Below, piece after piece: positions 717 to 31,441 of a stretch of 33,414 bases of DNA (position 1 is its first letter; each line of letters starts with the position of its first letter). The stretch is from a virus. Location: IMG/VR virus record IMGVR_UViG_3300033182_000613, positions 1-33,414 of that record; one strand, written 5' to 3'. The translations under genes were made by a program, and so were the position numbers. Below the pieces are notes generated by a model. That model saw nothing but the letters and a program-made list of their open reading frames with translations, had not been told where the DNA came from and did not search any database.

Positions 717-3700
717 ATGGCTGAATTTAAGTTAGACAGATTTAAGTATAATTGGAGAAACAATTGGCAAACTGGTGTCGCATATTCTAGAGATGACATT
801 GTTAAGTTTGGCGGCAAAACATTTGTTTGTCTAATAACACATACAGCTTCAGCAAATTTTTATACAGATAAAGATGCAGTAGTACCAGGTTCTACTCCTC
901 CTATTCCAGCACCTAAATGGGTTGTAATGACAGATGGTGTTGCATTTGCAGGTACGTGGCAATCAGGAGTAATGTACAAAGAAGGTGACATTGTCTATAT
1001 CAACGGTAGTCTTTATAAGTGTACAACTCATGTTCATACATCTTCAACATGGGAAGCAGACGAATCGTCTTGGGAAGTATATGCAAATCACATAGATTTT
1101 ATAGGAAACTGGTCTTCTACTACCGAATACGCTATAGGAGCAATTGTAAAATATAATGGTATTGCGTACAGATGTATTTCAACTCATACTTCAGCAGCAG
1201 CTATTGAAGATAATATAGACGATTGGGAAGTTTATTACGAAGGTATAGAATATCGTAGTGATTGGAGTAATGCTACTTCTTATTTTTTAAATGACTTAGT
1301 TAAATACGGTGGATCACTATATCGTTGCGTAGAAGCACATAATTCATTAGATGAAGAATTTAATTTTAATAAATTTCAACTTGAACTTTCGGGCTATGCA
1401 TTTGAAAATCGTTGGATTCCTACGAAATATTATAAAGCGGGCGATGTAGTAAGAGATGGTGGATATCTCTATTATTCTTTATCTGATAATATAGATTCAA
1501 ATCCATCAAACGATGATAGTACAATTAATTGGATAGTTCTTGCTTACGGATATAATTTTGTTGGTAATTGGAGCCCTAGTAGTTATTATAGAGCAGGCGA
1601 TGTAGTACTAAGAGGTGGCAATTTATACCTATGTAAAATGCCTATTGGTGCAGGCGATAATGATGGATCCACAAGAGATTACGAAGATGGAATAACATGG
1701 GAACTATTAGTTGAAGGCCAAACTTGGTCTAAGAACCATTCAATGATTGAATATCAGGTACGAGTAGAAGGACCTAGCGAAAATGAAATAGGTAATTCGT
1801 ATGTGTTCGATTACATGGGATTAAAACCAGCACTAGAAATGCATGAAGGCAATTTGTATGTTTTTGTTCAAGATGATTTAACTAACGTCTATTATCCAAA
1901 CGATCCGTATGCAGAGGTTCCGATTATTAATTCGCATCCTCTTAATTTTTCAAATAATACACTAAATGGGTTATTAACAGACGGTGGTTTAGCGTATACA
2001 ACTGATGTAACGTATTATTTAGATAATCAAATTGTAACATTCTCTGAATACAACGATAGCAATACATTTGCTGCGGCTACCTATCGTAGAGTTGAAATTT
2101 ATGTAACAAAAGATACACCTAACACACTTTACTATTGGTGTTATAATCATGAAAATATGGGTAGCAGTGTTACAGTTACTCATGATTTTGCAACAGGGTC
2201 TTGGAAAGAAGGTAGAGAATATCTATTAAACGAAGTTGTATATTTTGGTGGTAGTGCGTACAAGTGTAATTACCAACATATATCAGATGACCAAAATTTC
2301 CCTGGCGATAACGGTAGTGGCTACACATACTGGGATATACTTATACAAGGTGAGCCAGCTGGCCTGCTTTATAAAGGCGATTTGTTAACATATAATCTAA
2401 GTAGAGGATTACAGGGCGACGAAAGTACAATTGATATAACAAACTTACCTATAGGAGAAGAAAGACAACTTCTTTCTGTAACAGGTAATGATACAGCATT
2501 CTGGAGAGATTATGTTAACGATGCAGAAGTGATTTATGTAAGTACACAAGGATCTGACGAAGACGGATACGGAACAACTAAACATCGCCCATTTAAGTCA
2601 GTGCGCTATGCTGCTGAATATGTAGAAGATAACTTTTCACCATTGACTCCAGTAAAAATTAGTATTTCAACTGGACGTTACGAAGAAATTGGTCCAATAA
2701 GTGTTCCTGCAGGTACAGTAGTTATGGGCGACGAATTACGTTCAACTACTATTGTTGCTACTAACGGATTAGCTGATTATGCTAACGATTATTTTTACAT
2801 GACAATGTATTTTGATCGTTTAACACAGATATTATACGATATTTTAAATAACAATAAAATAATTCCACAGCCAGGCAACGATGAAACACAAGTTACTAGC
2901 TTGCCAGCAGCCGGCACAGGCATTGCTACTATTGTTAATTCTTTAAAAGATGATTTTATTCAATACTGCAACTTTAGAATTAATAGCACAGGCACAGATG
3001 CAACTGTAACATCTACTAATACTATGACTACTGAATACGGTAGAATTTATGGTGCAAATGTATTACATGCAAATAGAAACTTTATTTCTAATGAATTAGC
3101 ACTTTATATACAGCAACAATATCCTGATTATACTTTTAATACAACAAGGATGCGACACGACATAAGGGCGTTTATTAGAGGTGCAGTTTACGATTTAAAA
3201 TATCCTGGAAATTACAAAACAGTACTTGCAGCAAGAAGATATGTTAATGCTATTCTTGGATCACAGTCTGACGACTTATTTTACATGAGAGATGTTACCG
3301 GTTTAAGAAATTGTACTCTTGGAGGGTTATACGGAACTCTTAACCCTCCAGGTGTATTTGAATTGTATCAAAGACCTACAGGCGGTGCCTTTACATCACT
3401 TGATCCAGGTTGGGGACCAAACGACGAGCGTGTATGGATTATGAATCGTTCTCCGTATATGCAAGGAGTAACTAATATAGGTACTGGATGTACCGGAGCA
3501 AAAGTAGACGGATCTTTACATAATGGCGGGTTAAAGTCTTTTGTAACTAATGATTATACACAAGTCTTATCTGATGGTATAGGTTTTTGGACATTAAACA
3601 ATGCTAGAGCAGAACTTGTGTCTATGTTTACATATTACTGTTCTGTAGGATATCTTGCAGAGTCAGGCGGAGTTATTCGTGCAACAAACGGTAATAACTC

Positions 3701-17348: not shown

Positions 17349-19295
17349 ATGGCGGAGTTGCAAAGTACCATTATTAATGATACAGGTTACCTAGCATTAC
17401 CAGTAGGTACAACTGCTCAACGAGGTGCAGATCCCGGTGGTACACTTGTTTATTTTACTAGTGTAGGTACTACTAGCTGGACTGTTCCTGCAAACGTTAC
17501 AGCCGTTGAAGTCCTTGTTGTAGGAGGTGGCGGCGGCGGCGGCTCTGACATGGGCGGCGGCGGTGGCGGCGGAGGCGTTGTTTACGAAGGTGCTTATGAT
17601 GTAACTCCTGGTGAATCTATTACAGTAGTAGTAGGTGGAGGAGGCTCAGGAGCTCCTGCTGGTAGTAGTGGCCCTAGAGGATCTAACGGCGGCAACTCCT
17701 CTTTTGGAAATATTATAGCATATGGTGGCGGCGGTGGCGCATCTGACCACGACAGTTCAAGTTATCCTGCAGGTGACGGTGCAAGTGGCGGGGGCGCAAG
17801 TGGCGGGGGCCTACCTCCAAACGGTGGATCAAGTGGATTTTTAAGTGGCGGCTCTGGCGGATACGGCGGCGGATCTAGAGGACGATCAATATATCCCGGT
17901 CAAGGACACGACGGTTCTTGGGGTAGTGGTCACTGGTACCCGGGAGGTGGCGGCGGTGCCGGAACTGAAGGTAAGTCATATCCTATTCCTCACGGCGGTG
18001 ATGGCGTTGTTTCATACATTACAGGTGCTCCTATATACTGGGGCGGAGGTGGAGGCGGCTCTGGCTACTCTAGTACTGGTGGTAACGGTGGCCTTGGTGG
18101 AGGCGGCGGTGGCGCTGTAGGAACTACATACGGTGGACAAGGTTACAATAATGGATCCGGTGGCGGTGGCGGTGGTACTAACACATGGGCACAAACACCG
18201 GGCGGCGCTGGTGGAGCAAACACTGGTGGCGGTGGCGGCGGCGGTTCTCACTACAACTCTAATAACTACGGTGGTAACGGTGGTTCGGGTATTGTTATTG
18301 TAAAGTATAATACTACTGCTCCAGGTGCAGCACCAAATACAGGATCTATCAGAGTAAACTCTACTACAGGCCATGCAGAATATTTAAGTGCTGCAGGATT
18401 GTGGACTCCAATGGCAGTTCCGTTTAAAGTAAGAACTGTGATTAATACAGCATATATGATGGGCGGATACCAAAGCGGAAATGCGTGGAACAATGTGAAT
18501 AGATGTTTTGTATATACTGATACTACTATTAACCTAGGCGACGGATCTTTAGAACGTTCATTCAACTATCAAACTGCAAGTTGTGGCAGAGACATTGCGT
18601 ATGTATGGGGTGCAGGCAACGGCCACGTAGTAAGTTCAAACTACATTATTGGATTTAATATGCGTACTGATCAACAGTATAACGCAATGGTTAGTAGAAC
18701 CCTTTCTTATAACGGTATTAACAAAGGAAGTACCTTTAGAGAAACATATACTGCATGGATCACAGGCGGCGGCAGCAGCACTATTGACGAAGTTAACATG
18801 GTTACAGAAACTACAATAAGAACAATAGGTGGGTGGAGTTCAACGAATCAGTGGGGAATGAGCCACGAAAATGAAGGTTATTTCTTCTGGGAAAATGATT
18901 CAAGAATCTGGACGTTTGCTACTAGAACTGCAAGAGGATCCCCAAGCAGTCAACCTAGTAACCACCATCAGCAAAAATCAGTTCAATCTAAAATGAACTA
19001 TGGCTGGGCTGGTAACGAAGGTTCATACAGTGGTGGCTATAACCTGCGTAAAACAAACTTTGCTACACACCAAGCAAACGTTAGTACGCACAGTAAACCA
19101 CGTGGTAACTGTGGTGAAGAAAACTACACAATGGGACAAGACTGGCAGTATATGCTAGGTAACTATGATGGTTCTCAAAACAACGGTTCTTGGAAGTGGT
19201 ATTACTATACTGACAGTGGCGTAAACGTAGGTAGTACTACAGAACCCAAAGGAAAAGGCGGATCAAGTTCAGGCGCCTGTGCGTGGAGAGATTAA
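17349..19295 (+). CDS. glycine-rich tail fibre / adhesin
   Basis: The product has 648 residues. The N-terminal attachment module (MAELQSTIINDTGYLALPVG) is followed by 'TSWTVPANVTAVEVLVVGGG', the start of a glycine-rich phage adhesin domain. Residues about 57-315 are dominated by Gly runs separated by short polar loops, as in T-even gp38-type adhesins with polyglycine-II sandwiches. Then comes a second short fibre motif (GSIRVNSTTGHAEYL) and, from about 358, a kelch-like beta domain paralogous to most of the next protein. Both end in GEEN...GQDW...AxxWR. The Gly run makes a GC-rich island in AT-rich DNA. GAGG lies eight bases before the start. A receptor-binding tip is the likely role, by family analogy. 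Confidence 0.83.
   Translation: MAELQSTIINDTGYLALPVGTTAQRGADPGGTLVYFTSVGTTSWTVPANVTAVEVLVVGGGGGGGSDMGGGGGGGGVVYEGAYDVTPGESITVVVGGGGSGAPAGSSGPRGSNGGNSSFGNIIAYGGGGGASDHDSSSYPAGDGASGGGASGGGLPPNGGSSGFLSGGSGGYGGGSRGRSIYPGQGHDGSWGSGHWYPGGGGGAGTEGKSYPIPHGGDGVVSYITGAPIYWGGGGGGSGYSSTGGNGGLGGGGGGAVGTTYGGQGYNNGSGGGGGGTNTWAQTPGGAGGANTGGGGGGGSHYNSNNYGGNGGSGIVIVKYNTTAPGAAPNTGSIRVNSTTGHAEYLSAAGLWTPMAVPFKVRTVINTAYMMGGYQSGNAWNNVNRCFVYTDTTINLGDGSLERSFNYQTASCGRDIAYVWGAGNGHVVSSNYIIGFNMRTDQQYNAMVSRTLSYNGINKGSTFRETYTAWITGGGSSTIDEVNMVTETTIRTIGGWSSTNQWGMSHENEGYFFWENDSRIWTFATRTARGSPSSQPSNHHQQKSVQSKMNYGWAGNEGSYSGGYNLRKTNFATHQANVSTHSKPRGNCGEENYTMGQDWQYMLGNYDGSQNNGSWKWYYYTDSGVNVGSTTEPKGKGGSSSGACAWRD
17781..17810 (+). 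repeat. perfect 15-bp tandem duplication in the Gly-rich coding stretch
   Basis: GCAAGTGGCGGGGGC occurs twice head to tail, encoding ASGGG twice. It is in frame (15 bases), so a change in copy number alters loop length without a frameshift. This suggests recent slippage. Confidence 0.85.
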
Positions 19296-20341
19296 TGGCT
19301 AACTTAAAAAATACAAATATTAATGATACAGGTCACTTAACACTTCCAGGTGGCGAACCTGGAACTACTTCTGCAGGAACTATAAGATATAATATCACTG
19401 AAAATAGAGTTGAAATATATAATCCAAATACTGGTGGCGGACAATGGTCTAGTCAAGTATTGCCTTATTTGTCTAGACAAATTATTACTACGGGTTACTT
19501 ACATGGCGGATACGCATCTAGTGTTGTTTTTACAAATACTAACAGAACTACTTTTGCCACAGACACAACAGTAGACCTAACCGGTGCGAACCAGGCACAA
19601 GAGCGAGGACACAACTACAAATCGTGTTTGTGGAGTGGAACTACGAACTATACATTTGGCGGACAAGCAGGTTCTCACTGTGCCAGCTCTAGCGGTAATA
19701 TTGCATTTAACATGGTAACTGAACAAACACTAACTAGCGGTTATTCAAGAAACTTACCTTACTCTACAAATAATAATGCGTGTTTGCAACATGAAAATTT
19801 TAGAGGTTGGACAAGTATGGGCGGAACGTCAAACGTCTACGAATGGGACATGCAAACTGAAACACTCAATACGACTGCTATTACTTCTAACCCAAATGCT
19901 GGTGGATGGGGTACTAGTCATGAATTATATGGTGTATGGATTGGTTCTAGTGCAGGATATAGATTCTCATGGGCTACAAGAACTAACATTAACAGCAGAG
20001 GAACTGCTGTACAAGGTGACAAACATCAGCATTCATTAAGTTTCAAACACGCATACCATATTGCAGGACGTGAAAGCAATCCAAGTTCAAACTGGCGCGA
20101 AACAAATATGTATACAGATGCTACACAAGATGCAATTGGCAGCAAGCCAGCATATAGCGGAGAAGAAAATACAGTTACAGGACAGGACTGGGCGTATGCA
20201 CTAGGCTGGTACCAAGGTTCTCACGTTAATACATCATTTCGTTTTGTGTATGCTACAAGAGCAGGAACTACAACAGGTTCTAGCACACAACCAAAAGGTG
20301 TAGCAGGTCAAAGTTCAGCAACGATGTCATGGAGAGCATAA
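19295..20341 (+). CDS. tail fibre / adhesin with kelch-like beta domain, paralogous to the C-terminus of the preceding gene
   Basis: The product has 348 residues from ATG 19295, which overlaps the previous stop (TAATG). An in-frame GTG at 19283 exists but would bury 13 bases in the preceding gene and spoil the shared N-terminus (MANLKNTNINDTGHLTLPGG). After a short fibre motif (GTIRYNITENRVEIY), residues about 52-348 show repeated '(F/D)NM-x-TE(Q/T)' and 'GG' strands like kelch propellers. The final segment with HSLSFKHAYHIAG, GEENTVTGQDWAYALGWY and SSTQPKGVAG matches the end of the upstream Gly-rich protein. No transmembrane or catalytic features are seen. It is probably an alternative or accessory receptor-binding protein, inferred from context. 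Confidence 0.82.
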   Translation: MANLKNTNINDTGHLTLPGGEPGTTSAGTIRYNITENRVEIYNPNTGGGQWSSQVLPYLSRQIITTGYLHGGYASSVVFTNTNRTTFATDTTVDLTGANQAQERGHNYKSCLWSGTTNYTFGGQAGSHCASSSGNIAFNMVTEQTLTSGYSRNLPYSTNNNACLQHENFRGWTSMGGTSNVYEWDMQTETLNTTAITSNPNAGGWGTSHELYGVWIGSSAGYRFSWATRTNINSRGTAVQGDKHQHSLSFKHAYHIAGRESNPSSNWRETNMYTDATQDAIGSKPAYSGEENTVTGQDWAYALGWYQGSHVNTSFRFVYATRAGTTTGSSTQPKGVAGQSSATMSWRA

Positions 20342-20387: not shown

Positions 20388-21263
20388 ATGACAGATAAAC
20401 AAGATAGACTTATTCAGTATCATTCAGATCGTTTTAATAGCGATATTAATTCTGACGTAAGTATGCTCTCTGATCAAGAAAAAGAAATTGTTAAAAGAGC
20501 AATGAATAAAGAATGGACAAATCCAAAATATAAATTACGCTGGTTTGTTGGTCAATCTCAAATTACACCTTTTGCAAAAATGCGTCAATGGCTTCTTGAA
20601 ATTAAATCAAAGGAAGAATCTATTGAAAACATGGAATACGAAGTTGCTAAGACCGAAGTTGAATATGACAGATTTAAACGTATGAGAGATCAATCACATG
20701 ACGATCTAGATCGTAGACTTGCAGAAATTGAAATGTGGAATACAGAACGTATGCTTTACATGAGTAAACGTAGACTGCAAGATTGGTACCTAGAAAGACA
20801 GCACTTAATTGATTTACTAAATGAATTTATGGATTCAGATGAATCGTATCTACCAGACGGATCAGGCCGTACTTACATGGATATTCTTAACACCGAAGAA
20901 GAAGATGTTTATGAAGCAGAATACTGGACTAACAGGCTTGCAAAACAAGCAGCAACAGATATGTTATTCTATGGCAGAATAAATTCAGGTAACATGGATG
21001 CTATTTTACAAATGCCACCTGAGCAACAAGCAGAAACACTTGCATTAACTGTTAATTATAGTACTAAATTACAAAACTATCAACTACAGTTACAAGCACA
21101 AGCCGAAGAGAATTTAAAATTAGGAAGTAATGAAAATTACAAATCATTAACAAAGCCTAAAGAAGAAAGTACGCAAATGCATTCTCTTGAAAATTCTAAA
21201 ACGGATAACGAGATAAATACAAATATTGAAGAGGATTTATTAAAAGATGTATATTCTGTATGA
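20388..21263 (+). CDS. unrecognised charged protein with predicted coiled coil
   Basis: This 291-residue protein is rich in Glu, Lys, Gln and Met. Residues about 50-150 form long charged helices (KEESIENMEYEVAKTEVEYD, then DDLDRRLAEIEMWNTERM) with heptad-like spacing. The C-terminal third has Gln-rich helices (LQNYQLQLQAQAEENLKL) and ends in a disordered acidic tail. There is no signal peptide, membrane segment or known active site. The start has AAGGAG at 20375-20380. The gene follows the fibre array and overlaps the next gene by 17 bases. Such a protein could be a fibre-assembly chaperone or scaffold, but I do not recognise the family and that is a guess. Confidence 0.72.
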   Translation: MTDKQDRLIQYHSDRFNSDINSDVSMLSDQEKEIVKRAMNKEWTNPKYKLRWFVGQSQITPFAKMRQWLLEIKSKEESIENMEYEVAKTEVEYDRFKRMRDQSHDDLDRRLAEIEMWNTERMLYMSKRRLQDWYLERQHLIDLLNEFMDSDESYLPDGSGRTYMDILNTEEEDVYEAEYWTNRLAKQAATDMLFYGRINSGNMDAILQMPPEQQAETLALTVNYSTKLQNYQLQLQAQAEENLKLGSNENYKSLTKPKEESTQMHSLENSKTDNEINTNIEEDLLKDVYSV

Positions 21264-21846
21264 AACTTTGCCGAGCAATGATCCTAGGCTAACTACTAAC
21301 ATTCAGCACCGAGCAAATGCTTGGCATTATTCTATTGCTTATGTAAATAATGACTCTTTAGTAGAACACCCAATTAGTTGGCTTGATTATACAGAACTAA
21401 CTTCTGATGAAGCAGAATGTCATAGATTTATGAATGTGTTAGACGGAGAAATCCCAGTAATGATTAACAAAACTAATCCTGCTGACTTAGTTTCTCCCAC
21501 TAGCTACGGCGATAACGACTACGAAAAACAAATGTATCAATTAACAAAGTCAGATCTAAACAATACTGTTGCGTTAATGAAAAAGATAATGAAATTACAC
21601 GCAAAAAATCATAGTACAGATGAAACTGTAAGAAATAGACTTTATCAAGGTATTGATGCACTTAGCGAAATTACAGAAACTCAAATGTTTATGGCAACTT
21701 ATTTTGAATGGGAATGTGCGTACACTGCACTTCAAGATAAAATTCAAGAATTTCCAGTTAAGTGGTCTTGGGAAGAATTAAGACTTGATACTGAAAATGA
21801 TAAAGTTGTTATACAAACAACTGTTGACCCTGACAAAGACGTTTAA
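21247..21846 (+). CDS. unrecognised helical protein
   Basis: This 199-residue protein begins at an ATG inside the end of the previous gene (17-base overlap), which implies coupled translation. The N-terminal 60 residues look like a small mixed alpha/beta region (WHYSIAYVNNDSLVEHPISW); residues about 95-165 are helical (DLNNTVALMKKIMKLHAKNH and following). The tail (KVVIQTTVDPDKDV) is polar. No known motif is visible. It is the last gene before a strong terminator, so it closes the transcription unit that begins with the structural genes. Function unknown. Confidence 0.7.
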   Translation: MYILYETLPSNDPRLTTNIQHRANAWHYSIAYVNNDSLVEHPISWLDYTELTSDEAECHRFMNVLDGEIPVMINKTNPADLVSPTSYGDNDYEKQMYQLTKSDLNNTVALMKKIMKLHAKNHSTDETVRNRLYQGIDALSEITETQMFMATYFEWECAYTALQDKIQEFPVKWSWEELRLDTENDKVVIQTTVDPDKDV

Positions 21847-21884: not shown

Positions 21885-21906
21885 AAGTAATTATAGCATC
21901 TTTTTT
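21868..21906 (+). terminator. rho-independent terminator, perfect 16-bp stem, likely bidirectional
   Basis: The left arm (21868-21883) and right arm (21891-21906) are exact reverse complements with a 7-base loop (TAAGTAA). The right arm ends in six T. The left arm begins with six A, so the structure would also work on the other strand. It follows the end of the gene at 21846 by 21 bases and ends 13 bases before the next start codon. Confidence 0.85.
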
Positions 21907-21919
21907 GTTGAGTGAACAA

Positions 21920-23596
21920 ATGAAAAAAATTTTTAGCGTACCATTAAACCCAAAACTAACTCCAGATCAATTTGTAGAATTTTATAATTTTCTTAATGAT
22001 TATAAAGAATATATTTACGACATATATTTTACAAGTCGTATACCACCTTTTATGCAAGACGCTATGGGTGATGTTTTTGTACTACAAGAAGATTATTCCT
22101 ATGCTATTGAGCAAGCATTGGTAATACAAGCTAATCTTAATATTCCTGTTAGCGCAACATTTAACAATATTTCTGTTCCTCCTACGCAGAAAAATTTAGA
22201 TTTGTTTATTAAAAACTTTAAACCTTTATATGATGCAGGCATACGTATTGCTACTATTCCGCACACGCATTGGATGGCTACAGGGCAAATCAAACGAGCA
22301 TTTCCAGAACTATACGTAAAGAATACTATTTTAAGAGATGTAAAAACCGCCGCAGAGGTTGTTAACCTAGCCAAAGCAGGATTTGATTATATCAATTTAG
22401 ATAGAGATTTAATGCGAGATAAAGATACACTTTTGCGTATTAAAACTGCTAAGGAGTGGATTAAGAAAAACTTAGGAAAAGAAATTAAAATAAGTTTATT
22501 AGCTAACGAGGGATGTTTAGGTAATTGTCCTATGATGGTCGAACATTTTGAATTTAATAACGCTAGAAGAGGCGAAGCTCCACAATACTTTAATGATCCT
22601 ATTAGTCGTGTAAGTTGTCCTAAATGGGAAGTTGACGATCCTAGTGTACATTTAAAAACAGCAAACATCCCGCCGTGGAAAGAAGACTGGGATATTTTTA
22701 TTAACAAATTAGGAATTGATGTATTTAAAATGCATGGAAGAGAAGCCCCTCCAAGATTGTTTGAAAGTATTGATATTATTAAACGTTATGCTGCTAATAA
22801 TGATATCTTAATAGACCAGTTTAACAGTTATTTAGAGGATAATAATTTAAAAGAAAAACCTATCTTTGCATGGAGAGAAAAAATACGTAATTGTAAATTT
22901 GACTGCTGGGAATGTCATTTCTGCGACGATATTTACAAAGTTAAGTCTAAAATTGATCACACTGATTTAGTCAAACATGTAGCACAAAGTATCTTAGATT
23001 CAGGTATACCTACTACACAAAATAATATTCCTGGACTAACTAGTTCTAGAGTAAAAACGTTATTAAACAATATTGCAAAAGGTGTAGACACATATATGGA
23101 AATTGGATGTGCGTTAGGGTCAACATTCTTTGCAACGTTAGATAAAAACACATTGGTTGCTTATGCTGTTGATAACTGGAACGAAAATATTCAACCAGAT
23201 CGAACAGACTTACGTACTTTGCCAGAAAACACATATTTTAGATTTAAACAAAATTTAGAAAATTATAAAGGAAATTCTAAAATTGTTGTATTAAATAACG
23301 ATTTGTTTGAAACAAATCTAAAGGACCTCAACAAAAAAATTAATATGTGGTTTTATGATGGTCCTCATGATGCAAAGACAACAAAAGAAGCTGTAGAATT
23401 TTATGCTTCGTCATTCTCTAAAGAAGCAGTACTGATATTTGATGACGCAAATTGGAAAGGTGTAGTTGACGGCGCTAGAGAAGGAATTAACGCTGCTGGA
23501 TTAACAGCTAGTTATGAAAAAATAATATTAAACGACCAAGAAGATCCAAATGGATGGTGGAACGGGCTATATATTGTTATTGTGAATAAAGATTAA
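21920..23596 (+). CDS. U32-type TIM-barrel protein fused to a SAM-dependent methyltransferase
   Basis: The product has 558 residues from ATG 21920; an in-frame TTG at 21905 lies in the terminator's T run and is unlikely. Residues 1-340 resemble peptidase-U32-family barrels: NEGCLGNCPMMVEH (C199, C203), SCPKW (C233), and DVFKMHGRE near 270, matching the family's FKxEGR signature. A Cys cluster C325-x3-C329-x2-C332-x2-C335 follows, consistent with an Fe-S or Zn site. Residues 391-558 form a class I methyltransferase of the Methyltransf_24 type: YMEIGCALGST (SAM loop), AVDNW, DGPHD, FDDANW. Known U32 relatives (UbiU/V, TrhP, RlhA) perform oxygen-independent hydroxylation with an Fe-S cluster, so hydroxylation followed by methylation is a reasonable hypothesis. 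The substrate is unknown. The gene leads the cargo block and sits two bases before the halogenase. Confidence 0.75.
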   Translation: MKKIFSVPLNPKLTPDQFVEFYNFLNDYKEYIYDIYFTSRIPPFMQDAMGDVFVLQEDYSYAIEQALVIQANLNIPVSATFNNISVPPTQKNLDLFIKNFKPLYDAGIRIATIPHTHWMATGQIKRAFPELYVKNTILRDVKTAAEVVNLAKAGFDYINLDRDLMRDKDTLLRIKTAKEWIKKNLGKEIKISLLANEGCLGNCPMMVEHFEFNNARRGEAPQYFNDPISRVSCPKWEVDDPSVHLKTANIPPWKEDWDIFINKLGIDVFKMHGREAPPRLFESIDIIKRYAANNDILIDQFNSYLEDNNLKEKPIFAWREKIRNCKFDCWECHFCDDIYKVKSKIDHTDLVKHVAQSILDSGIPTTQNNIPGLTSSRVKTLLNNIAKGVDTYMEIGCALGSTFFATLDKNTLVAYAVDNWNENIQPDRTDLRTLPENTYFRFKQNLENYKGNSKIVVLNNDLFETNLKDLNKKINMWFYDGPHDAKTTKEAVEFYASSFSKEAVLIFDDANWKGVVDGAREGINAAGLTASYEKIILNDQEDPNGWWNGLYIVIVNKD

Positions 23597-23597
23597 A

Positions 23598-25124
23598 ATG
23601 AAAAAAGTAAAAAATATAATTATATTTGGCGGCGGAACAAGCGGATGGCTAACTGCTGCATACATGACTAAAAATTTAGCATTTCCAATTGACATTACAA
23701 TAATTGAAGATGTAAATGCAGGCCCAATTGGTGTTGGCGAAGGTACTCAGCCCTTGACTGCTAAATTTTTATATGAGTGCGGAATAGAAGCAAAACACTG
23801 GATGAAACCAAGTAATGCTGCATTTAAGTACGGCGTTGAATTAACAGGATGGAATGAAGAACCTTATTTTGTTGACAACGACGATGTTAAAAATTATATG
23901 ATAGCTAGTGCAATGTTTACTAGTGATTATTTTATAGACAAACCTTACAAAGAGTTTGCGGACTGGTATCCTGCTTATAGATTAGCTAAATCAAATACAA
24001 GCCCAAAGCTAACTGTAGATATTGATCAAAATTTTGGTTCGGGTCCTGACGGTTACGGTGCAGTACATTTTAGTGCTTACGATATTATCACAACAATAAA
24101 AACTATTCTTGGCGATAAAGTTACACATATCAATACTAAGATAGTCAATGTTGAAACAGATAACAACGGAATCACTAGACTGATTGACGAACAGAAAGTT
24201 AGTTACACGGCAGATTTATACATTGATTGTTCTGGGTTTAAGAGTTTGCTGTTAGAGAAGACATTAGGAGCAGAGTTTGTTTCATATGTTGATAATGGAT
24301 GGTTGCTAAATGATAGTGCTGTTGCTATACAAACACAATATACAGACCCAGAAAAAGAGTGCCACCCGTACACAAAGTCAACTACAATGAATGCAGGTTG
24401 GCGCTGGACTATTCCTACATACTCACGTATAGGCAATGGATATGTATATAGTTCAAAATATTTAACACCAGAACAAGCAGAACAAGAGCTTAGAGAAGCA
24501 TTAAATGAATGGAATGCGCCAGCAAAACATTTAAAAATGCGTTGTGGCACCCATAAAGAAATTGCTTTAAAAAATGTTTGTGCAGTAGGGCTAAGTGCCG
24601 GATTTGTAGAACCTTTAGAAGCTACTGGTATAACGTTTACTACGGCTGTAGCTAAATCAATTACTGATCTTTTAAACCTTAATAACGGAATATGGGAAGA
24701 TAATGTTACTGATATTATCAACCAAGGTTGGTATGAAATGTGTGTTGAAATTTTAACTTTTGTTTGGAGCCATTATTATTTTAGCACACGAAATGATACA
24801 GAATATTGGCAAGCAATTAGAAAACAAGAGATTACTGATTTACCAACCGATGCACAATTCATGCTAAACCAGTATTATCCTCAACTCAAACCATTCATAT
24901 TTTTTAGTCCGCAAAGTATGTTTAGTTCACAACAATGGTTTAGTATGTTACATGCAGGCGGCGCATATAAAGGTGTAAATGGTACTAGATTATCTGCAAA
25001 AGAAAAGGAATATGCAGAAATATTTTTAGACGTCGGTACTACTAGAATTAATAGTATTATTGAAAAATTTCCAAATCATTATGATTTTTTAAAAGGGTGG
25101 TATGACGGATGGACGGTAGAGTAG
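23598..25124 (+). CDS. flavin-dependent tryptophan-halogenase-like protein
   Basis: This 508-residue protein has the family's full marks. The FAD loop GGGTSGWLTAAYM lies at 11-23 and GVGEGTQP at 45-52. AAFKYG contains K77, aligned with the catalytic Lys of PrnA-type halogenases. The halogenase signature WRWTIP lies at 268-273, and VEPLEATGI at 337-345. Length is normal for the family. Such enzymes use FADH2, oxygen and halide to make HOCl/HOBr-type halogenating species. A flavin reductase is needed but none is seen here, so the host would have to provide it. It starts two bases after the U32-methyltransferase stop and overlaps the next oxygenase by 16 bases. The substrate need not be tryptophan; many relatives act on other indoles or peptides. 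Confidence 0.88.
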   Translation: MKKVKNIIIFGGGTSGWLTAAYMTKNLAFPIDITIIEDVNAGPIGVGEGTQPLTAKFLYECGIEAKHWMKPSNAAFKYGVELTGWNEEPYFVDNDDVKNYMIASAMFTSDYFIDKPYKEFADWYPAYRLAKSNTSPKLTVDIDQNFGSGPDGYGAVHFSAYDIITTIKTILGDKVTHINTKIVNVETDNNGITRLIDEQKVSYTADLYIDCSGFKSLLLEKTLGAEFVSYVDNGWLLNDSAVAIQTQYTDPEKECHPYTKSTTMNAGWRWTIPTYSRIGNGYVYSSKYLTPEQAEQELREALNEWNAPAKHLKMRCGTHKEIALKNVCAVGLSAGFVEPLEATGITFTTAVAKSITDLLNLNNGIWEDNVTDIINQGWYEMCVEILTFVWSHYYFSTRNDTEYWQAIRKQEITDLPTDAQFMLNQYYPQLKPFIFFSPQSMFSSQQWFSMLHAGGAYKGVNGTRLSAKEKEYAEIFLDVGTTRINSIIEKFPNHYDFLKGWYDGWTVE

Positions 25125-25690
25125 CGTTATATCATTCTGATATTTTTATTAGAGACAATCTTGGAACGTCAGAACAACTTAAAGATTTGTACGACCAAAT
25201 ACAAGAAGCTAAAACATCTAATAAAGAAGAGATAAGTCGCAGTAATGACGGGTGTTTTAGAACTACTAAAAAGTATAAAAACGACGATTGGTTAATGGCC
25301 GCTGTTCAAGACATGACAAAGAAAGCAGCAGAATATTATTTTGAAACAGACGAATCATTTTTGCAACATGTACCAGATAAAAAAATTAAAATAAATTATT
25401 GGACTAATGTAAACCAACCTGGTGCAAGTAATGTTATCCACAACCACGAAAAAGATTCATTTGCAGCAGTGTTTTATTTGCAAGCAGAAGGAACCGGAGA
25501 TATATCATTTGTAAATCCTGCAAATTTATTATCTAACTGTAATCCTGCTAGTCCATTTACACGTTGTTTAAATTTTTCTCCAGAAGATAATCAATTAATT
25601 CTATGGCCAGCTTGGGTTCCACATGAAGTTTATCCAAATCCGTCGGACAAAGAACGAATTAACATAGTTTTTAGTATACAACTTACATAA
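25109..25690 (+). CDS. 2OG-Fe(II) oxygenase (2OG-FeII_Oxy_5-like)
   Basis: This 193-residue protein starts inside the halogenase end (16-base overlap). The double-stranded beta-helix core is visible: INYWTNVNQPGASNVIHNHE with H111 and H113, then AAVFYLQ, and the distal WPAWVPHEVYPN (H172) followed by RINIVFSI (R183, the likely 2-oxoglutarate anchor). This pattern, with the WxNxNxPG lead-in and HxH, matches the putative 2OG-Fe(II) oxygenase family PF13759, common in marine phages and bacteria. The likely reaction is hydroxylation of a side chain or small molecule. Tight coupling to the halogenase suggests a shared pathway. The substrate is unknown. Confidence 0.85.
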   Translation: MDGRVALYHSDIFIRDNLGTSEQLKDLYDQIQEAKTSNKEEISRSNDGCFRTTKKYKNDDWLMAAVQDMTKKAAEYYFETDESFLQHVPDKKIKINYWTNVNQPGASNVIHNHEKDSFAAVFYLQAEGTGDISFVNPANLLSNCNPASPFTRCLNFSPEDNQLILWPAWVPHEVYPNPSDKERINIVFSIQLT

Positions 25691-25691
25691 T

Positions 25692-26432
25692 ATGAAAAGT
25701 ATAAAAATAGAATTTTTTTCAAAGGTAAAGGGATTAGCGGAAACTTTCCCTGTTATACCCGCTAATCAATATCGTCCAAAATGGATGAGTATATGTAAAG
25801 ACGACTTTATTAAAACTAAAGATACTTTACAACCAAGCCATTTACAAATGTGTCCCGGAATCTTTGAAATTTTCAAACACGGGTACATGGTTCCTATGTG
25901 GCATGATGCTGTAATTAAAACAACTTACGATAGAGAAGACTTTGATTTTGTATTACCAAGCACATATCTTAAAGAGTTAAGAGGTGGAGATCCAATTGGA
26001 ACGCACCCTTACAATATTACAAAATTTTTACCAAAAAGACATTACAGTAAACACGCTATTGTAAAAATGAATACTCCTTGGAATGTTATTGCACCGCCTG
26101 GTGTAAAGTTCTTAGTGTTGCCAATACCTTATCCAGACACACACGAACTAGAAAGTGCAATTGGTATACTAGATCCCGCCGTAAGTACAGAAATTAATTT
26201 TCAATGTTATTTGAACATAAACCAAGGTGAAATTATGGTAAAAGCAGGAACGCCTATGATGTATCTTATTCCTCTTACAGAGCAACAATACGAATTAGTT
26301 GTAAGAGACATGACTAAAAAAGATGCTGCTTGGTTAGAAAAGCGTAATTATCTAAATATTTTTGGATTTAAATTAAACAAACAAAAAATTAAAGAATCGT
26401 TTTATAGACATTTTTACGGAGTTAAAAAATGA
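25692..26432 (+). CDS. beta-rich protein, possibly DUF6065-like, copy A
   Basis: This 246-residue protein is paralogous to the one at 26838-27602. Shared landmarks, A then B: 'PVIPANQYRPKW' / 'PIIPASKQQWKW'; 'CPGIFEIFKHGYMVPMWHD' / 'CPGILGITKTGWVQRAWQD'; 'NTPWNVIAPPGVKFLVLPIP' / 'QSPWMVYIPKGYYLMSMPLP'; 'GILDP' / 'GLLDP'; 'AGTPMMYLIP' / 'AGTPLCQYIL'. This layout resembles a phage domain of unknown function (I think DUF6065, with a cupin-like core), but the name is uncertain. No catalytic metal triad is evident. It begins two bases after the oxygenase and overlaps the next gene by four bases (ATGA). Confidence 0.75.
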   Translation: MKSIKIEFFSKVKGLAETFPVIPANQYRPKWMSICKDDFIKTKDTLQPSHLQMCPGIFEIFKHGYMVPMWHDAVIKTTYDREDFDFVLPSTYLKELRGGDPIGTHPYNITKFLPKRHYSKHAIVKMNTPWNVIAPPGVKFLVLPIPYPDTHELESAIGILDPAVSTEINFQCYLNINQGEIMVKAGTPMMYLIPLTEQQYELVVRDMTKKDAAWLEKRNYLNIFGFKLNKQKIKESFYRHFYGVKK

Positions 26433-26863
26433 TACACGAATTATTTACTAATGATTTTGCGTTTTATCGACAAGAAATTAGAGAAGCAAAAGATGATTAT
26501 ACAAAACATAAGATAGATAAAGATAGACGAAAAGCACACAAATGGATTTCTGAATTTTTAAAAAAAGCTGAAATTATTCTAACTTATAAAAACGGAAATG
26601 ACACTATTACTACTATTGCGACCCTTAATGTAAAAACAGATTTAGAGTTACCTCAGACTCCAATGACACATGTTACTATAAACGGCAAACAAGTTTTAGA
26701 AGATCAGTATTTAAGATTTTATAGAATGCCTGAAGTTTTACCAGATTGCATTCATGTAGATCAAGTATTATGTTTTTTTGTTAGTAATCAACATGTAAGT
26801 GAAGTATCAGGAAGAATAAACACTCCAGGAAAAAAATATGTTAAAGAATCTGTTGAGTCATAA
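26429..26863 (+). CDS. unrecognised protein between the two paralogues
   Basis: This 144-residue protein is linked to the upstream gene by ATGA and to the downstream one by a 26-base overlap. The N-terminal 50 residues are a highly charged helix (RQEIREAKDDYTKHKIDKDR); the rest is predicted beta (AEIILTYKNGND, TTIATLNVKTDLEL, THVTINGKQV). There is no known motif. Its position inside a tightly packed block suggests it works with the neighbouring oxygenases or the paralogue pair; no biochemical role can be read from the sequence. Confidence 0.7.
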   Translation: MIHELFTNDFAFYRQEIREAKDDYTKHKIDKDRRKAHKWISEFLKKAEIILTYKNGNDTITTIATLNVKTDLELPQTPMTHVTINGKQVLEDQYLRFYRMPEVLPDCIHVDQVLCFFVSNQHVSEVSGRINTPGKKYVKESVES

Positions 26864-27602
26864 AAAAGAAAAATTAGAATTTGTATCTTTGTTACCAGAA
26901 GTAGCACAAATTATGCCTATCATTCCTGCATCTAAACAACAGTGGAAATGGGCTAAAGATGCCTTAGAAAACTACAAAAAAGTTAAAGACGAGAATACTA
27001 CGAAACGTTTTACTCATGTTGCTAGATGTCCTGGGATATTAGGTATTACAAAAACAGGATGGGTTCAGCGTGCATGGCAAGATATTGTTATTAAAACAAA
27101 TGGGGACGGAGTTTCTTACGAATGGCAAACACCTGTAAATCAAAATATAATAGATAGCGACCATACATGGCGTTGGGACTATGTAAGTCATCATAACGAA
27201 GAACTTTTTGGAATATATAACCCTGATAAAAATTGTTTAAAGACTGTTATAAAAATCCAAAGTCCTTGGATGGTGTATATTCCTAAAGGGTATTATCTAA
27301 TGAGCATGCCCCTGCCATACCCTGATAGACATGACTGGACGGCAGCAACAGGATTGCTCGACCCAGATTACGGTCCTAACTTTTTAAATGTACAAATGTT
27401 TTGGCATAATCTTAACGGAGAAACTTTTATTCCTGCAGGTACACCTTTGTGCCAATATATATTAATAAAGAAACACGAAGTTGAAGCAACAGTAAGAGAA
27501 TATGAAAAGAAAGATATTGAAAATTTACGTCTAAGGGCTACTGCGATAGATTGCAAGTATCAAAGCAATTATACAATGTTAAAAGACTTAAAATGGAAAT
27601 AA
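26838..27602 (+). CDS. beta-rich protein, possibly DUF6065-like, copy B
   Basis: This 254-residue paralogue of the protein at 25692-26432 keeps the same order of motifs: PIIPASKQQWKW, RCPGILGITKTGW, IKIQSPWMVYIPKGYYLMSM, GLLDPDYGP, NGETFIPAGTPLCQY. Both also share a helical C-terminus starting '(V/T)VR(D/E)(M/Y)xKKD'. The copies are strongly diverged, so the duplication is old. The start overlaps the previous gene by 26 bases and the stop lies two bases before the next gene. Function unknown. Retention of both copies beside two Fe(II) oxygenases and a halogenase hints at a role as scaffold or substrate-binding partner, which is speculation. Confidence 0.75.
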   Translation: MLKNLLSHKKEKLEFVSLLPEVAQIMPIIPASKQQWKWAKDALENYKKVKDENTTKRFTHVARCPGILGITKTGWVQRAWQDIVIKTNGDGVSYEWQTPVNQNIIDSDHTWRWDYVSHHNEELFGIYNPDKNCLKTVIKIQSPWMVYIPKGYYLMSMPLPYPDRHDWTAATGLLDPDYGPNFLNVQMFWHNLNGETFIPAGTPLCQYILIKKHEVEATVREYEKKDIENLRLRATAIDCKYQSNYTMLKDLKWK

Positions 27603-27603
27603 C

Positions 27604-28182
27604 ATGGAAGATTTCATTTATATAAAATATAACGCACTAAACAAACAAGAGTGTGCCGACGTCATTGATTACTTCGAACGTATGAGGTCATTAGGACTTG
27701 TTTTTGATAGACAAGAATTAAAGGACGGTATGCCTCATCATAAAAAAGACAAAGCGTGTTTTATGTTTGAACCTGATGCTATAACATTTGACAGAACACA
27801 TCCTATGGCTATGATGTTAATTGATCGCATAAAAGAAGCCTATATGGATTATATTAAAGAGTATAGTATACTTGCAGAAAGTGAACAACATGGCATTTAT
27901 AATATTAAAATTCAAAAGACCCAAATAGGTGGCGGTTTCCATAAATGGCACTATGAATCTAATGGAAGACTGTCAAGTAATAGATTTCTTGTATACACTT
28001 TATACCTAAATGATGTAAAGGTTGGCGGAGAAACGGAGTTTTTATACCAACATCGTAGAGTAAATGCTTCTGAAGGTACACTAGTATTATTTCCAGCAAC
28101 ATACACACATACCCATAGAGGAAATCCTCCTTTAAGCGGTGATAAGTATATTGCAACAGGATGGATTGAATATTTTGAATAA
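27604..28182 (+). CDS. prolyl-4-hydroxylase-like 2OG-Fe(II) oxygenase
   Basis: This 192-residue protein has the complete Fe(II)/2-oxoglutarate set: H116-x-E118 in GGFHKWHYESNGR (Glu replaces the more usual Asp, as in related phage enzymes), then 'LVYTLYLNDVKVGGETEF', the distal FPATYTHTHRG (H169 or H171), and K181 in GDKYIATGW as the 2-oxoglutarate-binding Lys. This is the prolyl-4-hydroxylase alpha-subunit-like family well known from marine phages. Proteins or peptides are plausible substrates. It differs in family from the oxygenase at 25109-25690, so the block has two independent hydroxylases. It starts two bases after the preceding stop and overlaps the J-domain gene. Confidence 0.88.
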   Translation: MEDFIYIKYNALNKQECADVIDYFERMRSLGLVFDRQELKDGMPHHKKDKACFMFEPDAITFDRTHPMAMMLIDRIKEAYMDYIKEYSILAESEQHGIYNIKIQKTQIGGGFHKWHYESNGRLSSNRFLVYTLYLNDVKVGGETEFLYQHRRVNASEGTLVLFPATYTHTHRGNPPLSGDKYIATGWIEYFE

Positions 28183-28673: not shown

Positions 28674-29879
28674 ATGTCTGCTAATCCTGTTGTTAATAAC
28701 ATACGTATTATACCTAGAACTCAAGATTTCTTAGAAAGAAATACAGGTTCTAGCGGAGAATTATATTTCAATAAAGACAGTAACAGTCTAAGAGTCTACA
28801 ACGGAAGCCTCAGAGGCGGCCATGAAGTTATTTCTGAATATAATCTAACCCAGTATATTGCGCAAAAAGAAATTGCTACTGTAAAATACGATGTTACGGT
28901 AGAAAATCAAGGAAGTGGTAATAAGTATGTTCTAAACGGTACTTATTATACTGATTTAAGTTTTGTAGTAGGTTATACTTACATTTTTGATCAAACTGAC
29001 CTTGACAATTTATATTATCCTAACGCTGAAGGAACTGTGTATAATGAACATCCTTTACATTTTTCTAGCGACGATCAAGATGGGAAGTTGAACGGCGGCA
29101 CTACGTACTTAACTAATGTCATTTATTTGCTAGACGACATTCAAGTTTCAGAAACCGAATACAATCAAAGATTCAATAGAGCCACTACTAGACAGGTACA
29201 ACTAACCGTAACTAAAGATACTCCAACTACCCTGTATTATTGGTGTGCTAATCATGTAGGTATGGGCAGAACTATTACTGTTGGCTTACCTGGTTCTGGT
29301 AATTCAGGTGGTGCGCAGGTGGATGTTTCAGATACTGCACCTGCTAGTCCAACAGAAGGAAATATATGGTTCAACAGCACTAACGGTAGAATATATGTAT
29401 ACGTTGCAGACGGCGATAGTAGTCAATGGGTACAACCTAGCGTACCAGTGTTTAGCGGAGACTATAACGATTTATCTAATGCACCAACTAGTATTTTAGA
29501 CTTTAGTATAACTGATGGTTCAGCTGGACAAATATTACAAACTGACGGCGCTGGCAATTTCTCATTTGTTGCCGGCACAACATATGACCAAACATTAAAC
29601 ACTTCTGACGATGTAGAATTTAATACAATAAGTGCAACTGAATTTATTAACACAGGTGTAGGTACTCCAGAAATTGATAGTGCGTCAACATTAACTTTGA
29701 CCGCAGCAGATGGAGTAATTGTAAATGGATCTCAATTTAGGTTACCTAGTTTTACAACAACTCAAAGAGGTAATCTTGTTCCAATCAACGGTGATTTGAT
29801 ATACAATACAACAACTAATAAGGTGCAAGCGTATCAAAATGGTGCTTGGATAAACCTTGATGACGGAAGTGCAGCATAA
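28674..29879 (+). CDS. virion structural protein with cupredoxin-like domain and fibre-type C-terminus
   Basis: The product has 401 residues. The N-terminal segment (TQDFLERNTGSSGELYFN, then NSLRVYNG) is a fibre attachment motif. Residues about 70-205 form a cupredoxin-like domain closely related to that of giant protein 1: H126 in NEHPLHFSS and C191-x2-H194-x2-M197 in TLYYWCANHVGMG, a ligand set like type 1 copper proteins. The C-terminal half shows fibre repeats (SGDYNDLSNAPTSILDFS, QILQTDGAGNFSF) and ends with QRGNLVPINGDLIYNTTTNK. A late-type promoter precedes it, and its stop overlaps the protease start (TAATG). Copper binding is untested; the His/Cys/His/Met spacing is seen directly. 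Confidence 0.82.
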   Translation: MSANPVVNNIRIIPRTQDFLERNTGSSGELYFNKDSNSLRVYNGSLRGGHEVISEYNLTQYIAQKEIATVKYDVTVENQGSGNKYVLNGTYYTDLSFVVGYTYIFDQTDLDNLYYPNAEGTVYNEHPLHFSSDDQDGKLNGGTTYLTNVIYLLDDIQVSETEYNQRFNRATTRQVQLTVTKDTPTTLYYWCANHVGMGRTITVGLPGSGNSGGAQVDVSDTAPASPTEGNIWFNSTNGRIYVYVADGDSSQWVQPSVPVFSGDYNDLSNAPTSILDFSITDGSAGQILQTDGAGNFSFVAGTTYDQTLNTSDDVEFNTISATEFINTGVGTPEIDSASTLTLTAADGVIVNGSQFRLPSFTTTQRGNLVPINGDLIYNTTTNKVQAYQNGAWINLDDGSAA

Positions 29880-31441
29880 TGAGCGAAAAAGAATACGCAG
29901 TAATTGTTAAGAAGGGTGTAGACATAGAAGAATTTGATGCTGAAATGGCAGCATCGCAAGGTCACGGTCCTGTTCCAAATCGCTCAGTAGATGTTGCTAA
30001 TCCACGTTTAGGTTCTGGTAGAATGACTCACTGGATGATTACTGACGAAGAAGCAGAATCTTTGCGTAGTGATCCTAGAGTTGAAGCAGTTGAAATTCCT
30101 CCGTACTTACGCGACGATATACACATAGGTCTAAGAGCAAGTCAAACAGGAAATTTTTATAGAGGTACGTTAGGGGCGTCTACAGAAGTTAATTGGGGGT
30201 TAAAACGTTCTATTGCTGAAACAAACACATACTTTAATCAACCAACTATAGCAGGTAATTACGAGTATGCACTAGACGGATCAGGTGTTGACATTGTAAT
30301 TCAAGATAGCGGTTTACAAGTTGATCATCCTGACTTTAATGACTATGTCGGTAATAGCCGAGTTCAACAAATAAACTGGTATACAGAAAGCGGATTACCT
30401 GGCACACAATCTGCTAACCATTATAGAGATTATGAAGGTCACGGAACACATTGCGCAGGGATAGCAGCAGGTCTTACCTATGGCTGGGCAAAAGGTGCAA
30501 GAATATATTCGCAAAAATTAAGCGGGTTAGAAGGCCCCGGTGACAGCGGAACAGGTATATCAGTAGCTGATGCGTTTGACTCTATTAGATTATGGCACAT
30601 TGCTAAAGGAGGAACAAGACCAACAATAGTTAATATGAGCTGGGGATACTTTAGCTCTTCTACAGTTGATCCTACTTCTGGTGAATATAGAGGTATAAGT
30701 TGGAATTATGGCGATCCAAATTATTCAACCATTACTGAACTTTGGGCTAATGCAGGAATTGTCCCACCATTTGACGTTGACGGTACAAGTGTAAGATACT
30801 TTACAAATACAAATGCTTTTGCTAATGCAGAAGTTGAAGATATGATTGATGCTGGAATACATGTATGTATAGCGGCAGGAAACGATTATTATAAACTAGA
30901 CGTATCAGGCGGCCTAGATTATGATAATTTTGCAGTATTTTCAGGAACACAACAATTTTATCATCGTTCAGGATCTCCATATAGCAGCAGAGCGTTTTAC
31001 GTAGGTAATATTGACTCAACTGTTCAAAACGACAGCGGAACTTATAGAGATAAAACAGCAAGTTCAAGTAATAAAGGTCCTGCTGTTAATATATGGGCTC
31101 CTGGAACTAATATAATGAGTACTACTAGCACTGTTAATGACGGCTATACAACTGTAAATTATCCCAATAACACAAGCTATAAAATTACAAGTATTAGCGG
31201 AACGTCAATGGCATCTCCACAAGTAGCAGGAGTGTGCGCTCTATATTTACAAGCAACACCTGATATTTCAACAGACGATCTGCTGACAAAAATAATAAAC
31301 GATTCTAAAAGTGTCATTTATGATACGGGAGTAAATAACGATTACGCAAGCTACCAAACGTCAATTATGGGTGCTCCAAATAGAATGTTATATTCAAAAT
31401 ATGGAAGACAACCAGTAATTTATAAGAATGTGAGTTTATAA
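29879..31441 (+). CDS. subtilisin-like serine protease (S8 family)
   Basis: This 520-residue protein has the full catalytic set: D143 in DIVIQDSGLQVDHPDF, H188 in YEGHGTHCAG, the oxyanion N335 in CIAAGNDY and S443 in SGTSMASPQVAG. Residues 1-80 resemble an I9-type propeptide: MSEKEYAVIVKKGVD at the start and SDPRVEAVEIPP at the cleavage-zone end. There is no signal peptide, so it acts in the host cytoplasm or inside the particle. It sits between two structural genes and is coupled to the upstream one by TAATG. Processing of a virion protein or degradation of host surface protein are both possible. This differs from the usual T4 prohead protease (gp21, U9 family). Confidence 0.9.
   Translation: MSEKEYAVIVKKGVDIEEFDAEMAASQGHGPVPNRSVDVANPRLGSGRMTHWMITDEEAESLRSDPRVEAVEIPPYLRDDIHIGLRASQTGNFYRGTLGASTEVNWGLKRSIAETNTYFNQPTIAGNYEYALDGSGVDIVIQDSGLQVDHPDFNDYVGNSRVQQINWYTESGLPGTQSANHYRDYEGHGTHCAGIAAGLTYGWAKGARIYSQKLSGLEGPGDSGTGISVADAFDSIRLWHIAKGGTRPTIVNMSWGYFSSSTVDPTSGEYRGISWNYGDPNYSTITELWANAGIVPPFDVDGTSVRYFTNTNAFANAEVEDMIDAGIHVCIAAGNDYYKLDVSGGLDYDNFAVFSGTQQFYHRSGSPYSSRAFYVGNIDSTVQNDSGTYRDKTASSSNKGPAVNIWAPGTNIMSTTSTVNDGYTTVNYPNNTSYKITSISGTSMASPQVAGVCALYLQATPDISTDDLLTKIINDSKSVIYDTGVNNDYASYQTSIMGAPNRMLYSKYGRQPVIYKNVSL

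Follow-up and report, generated by a model that had tools for sequence, protein, structure and literature searches.

What chemistry might a virus carry out with a single polypeptide in which a U32-like barrel is joined to an O-methyltransferase? The question is raised by an IMG/VR virus record of 33,414 bases (the window, meaning the whole stretch of DNA analysed), in which a stop-free frame translates into a protein of 558 residues, here P0001; the longest TTG-started version of this frame begins at 21905. A sequence-only reading had proposed that a U32-type barrel with seven candidate metal-binding cysteines is fused here to a SAM methyltransferase, and that the chain could hydroxylate and then O-methylate RNA or another substrate.

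Such a pairing has a counterpart in bacteria. As described in the available text of PMC6599085, the U32 proteins YrrN/YrrO (TrhP1/TrhP2) and YrrM (TrmR) of Bacillus subtilis are encoded in one operon, yrrMNO. TrmR is similar to catechol O-methyltransferase and converts ho5U to mo5U, and TrhO-TrmR gene fusions occur in three species of Phytophthora and Phaeodactylum. In the portions of the literature at hand, characterised U32 oxidases act on RNA or quinones, with a [4Fe-4S] cluster published for UbiU/UbiV and prephenate use for TrhP (PMC6747719; PMC11574389), and characterised Fe-S U32 proteins are linked to hydroxylation (PMC11574389).

Organization of the fused protein

All of the motifs named from the letters are present in the translation: NEGCLGNCP (196-204), C233, FKMHGRE (269-275), C325/C329/C332/C335, YMEIGCALGST, DGPHD and FDDANW. 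Their positions, together with those of the neighbouring genes, are collected in Table 1. The protein matches PHROG 1458 over residues 49-557 (E 2.3e-171), and phrog_36869 over residues 5-347. The whole fusion is thus a member of the family PHROG 1458 / T4-GC 354, whose names carry no function. Three other candidate identities were discarded. An NCBIfam CRISPR-repeat-binding match is noise (16.7 bits against a cut-off of 140), and a phrog_2675 'DNA methyltransferase' match (38.9 bits) reflects the shared SAM fold. In radical SAM enzymes the CX3CX2C cluster sits in the N-terminal part of the barrel; in P0001 this spacing is found only in the C-terminal tail of the barrel part (325-332), and no radical SAM Pfam profile matches, so that motif place and profiles together lead us to reject that reading.

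Table 1. Coordinates of the fusion, its parts and its neighbours in the window. Fractions of 97 refer to distinct aligned sequences, fractions of 81 to phage loci with a relative near the fusion.
Feature	Position	Strand	Basis
Glycine-rich tail-fibre-like protein (Gly_rich_2), candidate substrate	17349..19295	+	relative near fusion 78/81
Fibre-type protein	19283..20341	+	no Pfam match; relative nearby 72/81
phrog_1409, constant upstream gene (annotation: function unknown)	20388..21263	+	upstream in 81/81
199-aa protein directly upstream of fusion	21247..21846	+	no PHROG match; 41/81
U32-like barrel / class I O-methyltransferase fusion P0001, 558 aa	21920..23596	+	translation, PHROG 1458, T4-GC 354, alignment
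N-terminal U32-like barrel and Cys-rich tail, ~residues 1-345	21920..22954	+	AlphaFold2, PDB match 5D88, profile links
C199 and C203 (NEGCxxxCP), just past barrel strand	22514..22528	+	97/97; common to bacterial groups
C233, third cysteine of barrel part	22616..22618	+	97/97
KMHGRE (270-275)	22727..22744	+	K and GR align with canonical U32 KIxGR via group B
C325-x3-C329-x2-C332-x2-C335, second candidate metal site	22892..22924	+	97/97; 7/7 Chloroflexota relatives tested
COMT-like O-methyltransferase domain, ~residues 365-558	23012..23593	+	Methyltransf_24 33.2 bits; O-methyltransferases Z 15-17
SAM-binding loop E394-G400	23099..23119	+	G396, G400 in 97/97
DGPH (480-483) and DDAN (508-511), candidate divalent-metal/catalytic residues	23357..23452	+	conservation
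Flavin-dependent tryptophan-halogenase family protein	23598..25124	+	PF04820 287.6 bits; 53/81
2OG-Fe(II) oxygenase	25109..25690	+	PF13759; either 2OG gene 66/81
phrog_7084 protein	25692..26432	+	either phrog_7084 gene 51/81
Second phrog_7084 protein	26838..27602	+	PHROG match
Second 2OG-Fe(II) oxygenase	27604..28182	+	PF13640

A divergent U32-like barrel

Structure prediction gives a barrel for the N-terminal half, and the best PDB barrel match to the predicted models is a U32 structure, 5D88 (the U32 protein Mk0906). The full-length AlphaFold2 model, built with 55 sequences, has a mean pLDDT of 90.5 and a pTM of 0.83. Foldseek ranks 5D88 second for this model (E 1.1e-6, TMt 0.70), behind a methyltransferase match, and VIA superposes 222 residues of it across model residues 1-280 (Z 16.6, rmsd 3.1). 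When the N-domain is modelled by itself (pLDDT 82.7), 5D88 comes first (Z 14.7), with a small lead over other barrels, such as methylenetetrahydrofolate reductase (MTHFR, Z 13.5). Across the models 5D88 is the top barrel match, with a Foldseek TMt of 0.70-0.71.

Pfam PF01136 (Peptidase_U32) does not match P0001 at E 0.1, nor anything else within the window; the first half of P0001 has no Pfam match of any kind, no NCBIfam U32 model matches the protein, and a PDB sequence search returns a single weak match (E 0.066). A profile of the phage N-domain, A2, run against the PDB hit two near-identical clostridial toxin light chain chains (E 0.017) over the last third only, which was taken as chance.

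The profile reaches bacterial U32-like proteins, its best E values being 9e-14 for a Desulfobacterota group and 3e-33 for a Chloroflexota group. By phylum, A2 matches were found in 12 of 297 genomes from the phylum of a Syntrophaceae MAG, in 5 of 251 from the phylum of a Dehalococcoidia MAG (one being the phage contig L118), and in 1 of 243 from a third phylum, that one being the phage-like contig L117 in its own genome. Ten of the bacterial proteins were scanned with PF01136 and four passed its cut-off, at 23.7 to 50.8 bits. Among nine scanned with NCBIfam, one weakly matches the TrhP and UbiU models and another the TrhP model (E 0.005). For one relative, L125, sequence comparison alone picks up 5D88 (E 1.5e-11).

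These relatives supply a bridge. With hhalign, A2 aligns to the bacterial group B at 99.3% over 306 columns, and to group D at 99.8%; group D is presumed to be Chloroflexota, through the Dehalococcoidia MAG of L118. Group B aligns in turn to UbiU-like (98.3%), RlhA-like (97.8%) and TrhP-like (97.2%) proteins, canonical group names that were set from length and PF01136 score. Compared directly with those groups, A2 scores only 1.0% (TrhP-like), 32.8% (RlhA-like) and 9.3% (Ubi-like), and group D scores 0.1-51%. In the alignments KMHGR of A2 meets KLVGR of group B, which meets KIEGR of canonical U32 proteins. A further group, C (L129-L133), has the cysteines in common in the alignment and came up in the genome search at E 6e-6 to 3e-4; it was dropped as a bridge when hhalign failed (2.7% to A2, 0.1-1.9% to canonical U32).

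By transitivity through group B, then, the N-domain belongs to the U32 superfamily. Being linked by profiles but weak in direct scores, it is a divergent relative rather than a standard U32 protein. The proposed U32-type barrel accordingly survives in its fold and in a homology to PF01136 proteins by transitivity, and fails as a Pfam U32 match of the protein itself. With the oxidases UbiU/UbiV, TrhP and RlhA, all of PF01136, the phage domain has in common the barrel fold, the K..GR element and the placing of cysteines close to strands of the barrel, and it is homologous to them via group B. It differs from them in having seven cysteines in place of a four-cysteine motif, a fused methyltransferase, surroundings of fibre genes and no PF01136 match.

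Cysteine layout and conserved residues

The spacing of the cysteines in P0001 is CX3CX29CX91CX3CX2CX2C. The U32 clusters described in the accessible text of the published work follow CX6CX15CX3/4C, of which UbiU and UbiV have variants (PMC6747719; PMC11574389), and this motif is absent from P0001; a layout so unlike the published one again marks a divergent branch. Groups B and D, and likewise L119, carry this set of seven cysteines. With three cysteines in the barrel and four in the tail, the domain may hold either a cluster that leaves one site open together with another site of four ligands, or a single cluster and a bound zinc.

Of 124 loci matched, 115 gave a stop-free alignment of more than 500 residues, and 9, partial or interrupted, were excluded; with the query these make 97 distinct sequences. 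All seven cysteines, E197, H209, K270, H272, G273, R274 and E275 are invariant in 97/97, and for this reason the barrel motifs are not a matter of chance. The seven candidate ligands proposed from the sequence are therefore all present and fixed, in a layout unlike that of the characterised U32 oxidases. On the methyltransferase side, G396, G400, N511 and W547-G549 are likewise found in 97/97, the acids D480, D508 and D509 in 96/97, and H483 in 76/97, being absent in 21. Mean pairwise identity is 63% over residues 1-345 versus 42% over residues 365-558, and the N-terminal part is the more similar in 4616 of 4656 pairs. One member of the 97 (L061, 6001-7629) has asparagine at 480, 508 and 509 with its barrel cysteines intact, and its methyltransferase looks inactivated.

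The methyltransferase half

The C-terminal part had been read as a SAM methyltransferase, which can be sharpened to a COMT-like O-methyltransferase. Pfam Methyltransf_24 matches residues 394-509 with 33.2 bits against a cut-off of 26.3 (at E 0.01 it matches neither of the members L061 and L087), and the remaining top VIA rows of the full-length model are O-methyltransferases of the COMT/CCoAOMT type, with Z of 15-17. The residues of the D480/D508/D509 region we take to be metal ligands by analogy to COMT. From other Methyltransf_24/COMT-type enzymes, whose profile cut-off it passes, the phage domain is set apart by its fusion C-terminal to a U32-like barrel and by the loss of H483 in 21/97.

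Two structures of B. subtilis TrmR are among the matches of this domain, 5zw3 (Z 15.6) and 5zw4 (Z 15.0). Together with the one-operon precedent in the available text of PMC6599085, they bear out the earlier analogy to a U32 hydroxylase working with a separate methyltransferase. In both systems a U32 protein is partnered with a COMT-like O-methyltransferase; TrhP1/TrhP2 and TrmR are separate proteins with tRNA U34 as target, whereas the phage has one chain, another cysteine layout and a fibre-gene context.

Distribution and annotation

Relatives of the fusion were found by tblastn in 123 of 50,697 phage records, every one at less than 60% identity and every one titled Synechococcus phage, cyanophage or Prochlorococcus phage. 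The match spans 80% or more of the query in 121 of the 123 at E 1e-5 and in all 123 at E 1, the record count staying at 123 with the relaxed threshold; barrel and methyltransferase as a single chain are thus a conserved arrangement. Of 245 candidate stretches in IMG/VR, 239 encode relatives, and the 80 best of these 239 were kept. A query with Syn19 led to 31 loci and a third query to 7. In one distant viral member (L155:5992-7612) barrel and methyltransferase lie in two overlapping frames, either a true split gene or a sequencing error.

Two members come from MAG records, L117 under an archaeal title and L118 under a Dehalococcoidia title. Both carry cyanophage-type genes and are probably phage contigs that were binned with the MAGs; in L118 the fusion stands among fibre genes. 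A canonical U32 fragment has matches in 43 phage records, and no cyanophage appears in their tally; the ten listed, short and lacking annotation, may be carry-over of bacterial or host DNA.

Annotation in the phage records is mostly 'hypothetical' (PHROG 1458, T4-GC 354), and where T4-GC numbers are given the fusion gene is T4-GC 354, 'hypothetical'. No earlier report of the fusion was found in the literature searched, where the phrase search for 'T4-GC 354' may miss variant spellings, and no title retrieved for peptidase U32 with phage is about cyanophages. The fusion, in short, is a seven-cysteine U32-like barrel with an O-methyltransferase, conserved in cyanophages and lacking a named function in the records examined.

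A setting among fibre genes

Neighbours were counted on the same strand within ~8 kb in the 81 of 117 anchored loci that have at least 3 kb on either side. A halogenase or 2OG oxygenase is present in 66/81 loci and both are present in 53/81; as a control, the window's NUDIX gene has a relative near the fusion in 0/81. Because the loci share a common descent and matches between glycine-rich proteins are loose, these counts express linkage and not independent events. Among other cyanophages, S-ShM2 has three 2OG oxygenases between the fibre genes and T4-GC 354, and S-SM1 has several 2OG oxygenases behind the fibre genes. T4-GC 354 is absent from the region of S-SM1 examined; a virion proteome of this phage has been published (PMC3037559).

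Other features of the window may be recorded here. The two phrog_7084 copies lie between the two 2OG-Fe(II) oxygenases, a very large protein with six CBM_5_12 carbohydrate-binding module stretches is encoded at 717-6668, and a subtilase (Peptidase_S8) gene stands at 29879-31441 amid fibre-type genes.

Standalone bacterial relatives

An order-level search found the Chloroflexota relatives in 8 of 156 genomes, at 9 places. Two of these, on short fragments, were excluded and seven full loci were read (L145-L149, L196, L197); plasmids gave no match to the Chloroflexota protein. The proteins are standalone, of ~410 residues, and have the seven cysteines and an FK.SGR element in common with the fusion (hhalign 99.8%). 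Where an O-methyltransferase is present it is a separate gene of the Methyltransf_2 family, whereas in the phage it is fused. Such a gene lies directly upstream on the same strand in three of the seven loci (L148, L149 and L196), at spacings from an 11-base overlap to a 30-base gap. It matches Methyltransf_2 at L148 and L149, and the L196 gene is 60-66% identical to those two. By BLASTP the L149 enzyme has no detectable relation to the methyltransferase half of the phage protein (E 1.7). An upstream O-methyltransferase of another family in 3/7 loci is independent support for a pairing of hydroxylation with O-methylation.

A reductive-dehalogenase-type gene adjoins six of the seven loci, the exception being L197. 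PF13486 matched at L145, L146 and L147, and BLASTP connects the corresponding genes of L148, L149 and L196 with these three (28-32% identity, E <1e-48). In three loci the O-methyltransferase gene sits between the seven-cysteine gene and the reductive-dehalogenase-type gene, and a DAHP synthase gene is near L145. The seven-cysteine gene may be an overlooked partner in the metabolism of organohalides or aromatics. In the Syntrophaceae MAG (L119:7589-9520) another U32-like gene, shorter than the first, comes after the standalone relative of the N-domain, and genes of the GNAT, sulfotransferase and cysD/cysN-like kinds lie close by; judged by eye, it reads as a bacterial contig.

What the fusion may do

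The same pair of folds as in TrhP and TrmR is held here in one chain, and hydroxylation by the barrel with O-methylation by the C-domain is therefore the best explanation. We give a probability of about one half to the fusion being a one-chain, two-step tailoring enzyme. The U32-like barrel, with one or two Fe-S clusters (C199/C203/C233; tail CX3CX2CX2C), would oxidize the substrate, most likely by hydroxylation, and the metal- and SAM-dependent COMT-like domain would then methylate the new hydroxyl. Fe-S binding, hydroxylation, the order of the steps and the substrate are what we infer; the conserved fusion, the intact SAM and metal motifs, the invariant cysteines and the linkage to fibre and oxygenase genes speak for this two-step reading. 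Against it, PF01136 does not match directly and direct profile scores to canonical U32 groups are weak, the cysteine set departs from the published motif, the C-domain has diverged further than the barrel and looks inactivated in 1/97, and H483 is missing in 21/97. O2-sensitive chemistry is odd in oxygenic hosts and next to O2-dependent oxygenases, and the dehalogenase-like neighbours of the Chloroflexota relatives could point to other, reductive chemistry.

This last point leads to a different reaction, which we consider unlikely: an Fe-S barrel with non-hydroxylating chemistry, whether reductive or the dehydroxylation or dehalogenation of an aromatic, beside a methyltransferase that uses a pre-existing hydroxyl, for example from the neighbouring 2OG oxygenases. 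A cysteine layout unlike the known U32 oxidases, as described in the available text of PMC6747719, the dehalogenase-like genes at 6/7 Chloroflexota loci and the 2OG relatives at 66/81 phage loci fit such a role, which is opposed by the published link of characterised Fe-S U32 proteins to hydroxylation (PMC11574389) and by the strong bridge from group B to the UbiU, TrhP and RlhA groups.

For a two-step enzyme, our best guess at the substrate is a side chain of a phage fibre or adhesin, or a small molecule, rather than RNA; it is the fibre-gene setting that suggests a fibre protein or a small molecule of late infection. A more specific version, speculative and in our estimate improbable, is that the fusion is a protein-modifying U32 enzyme whose targets are side chains, perhaps those of aromatic residues, in the glycine-rich tail fibres of the phage itself. 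It would hydroxylate and O-methylate them as part of a fibre-decorating cassette with the 2OG oxygenases and the halogenase, and would represent a seven-cysteine, possibly two-cluster branch of the U32 superfamily.

RNA had been put forward as a substrate, a suggestion that is unsupported; the regular neighbours are tail-fibre genes. That the chain is TrhP and TrmR in one, giving the tRNA or rRNA of host or phage a methoxy base that resembles mo5U, we regard as quite unlikely, even with known U32 RNA hydroxylases, the yrrMNO operon and the TrhO-TrmR fusion described in the available part of PMC6599085 as models. The TrmR structures lie no more than ~2 Z units below the top match to the C-domain, but the Z gaps to many small-molecule O-methyltransferases are small, so that the TrmR match shows no specificity; the gene sits among fibre genes, and no RNA-binding domain was matched in Pfam, PHROG or NCBIfam. 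Very unlikely is a virion or assembly protein, for instance one that serves as chaperone or tip of a fibre and retains the fold of an enzyme without catalysis, its constant place downstream of phrog_1409 (81/81) near fibre genes and a faster-diverging C-domain, degraded in L061, being outweighed by SAM- and metal-site residues kept in 96-97/97 and cysteines in 97/97, a pattern that argues for catalysis.

Implications

If it acts in two steps, the phage fusion would carry out methoxylation on its own. The bacterial counterpart, with its two separate genes, offers an independent test of the logic of hydroxylating first and methylating afterwards. A 'hypothetical' gene of many cyanophages, which infect cyanobacteria of the ocean, thereby becomes a testable enzyme. 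It also raises the question of why cyanophages keep oxygenases, a halogenase and this fusion beside their fibre genes.
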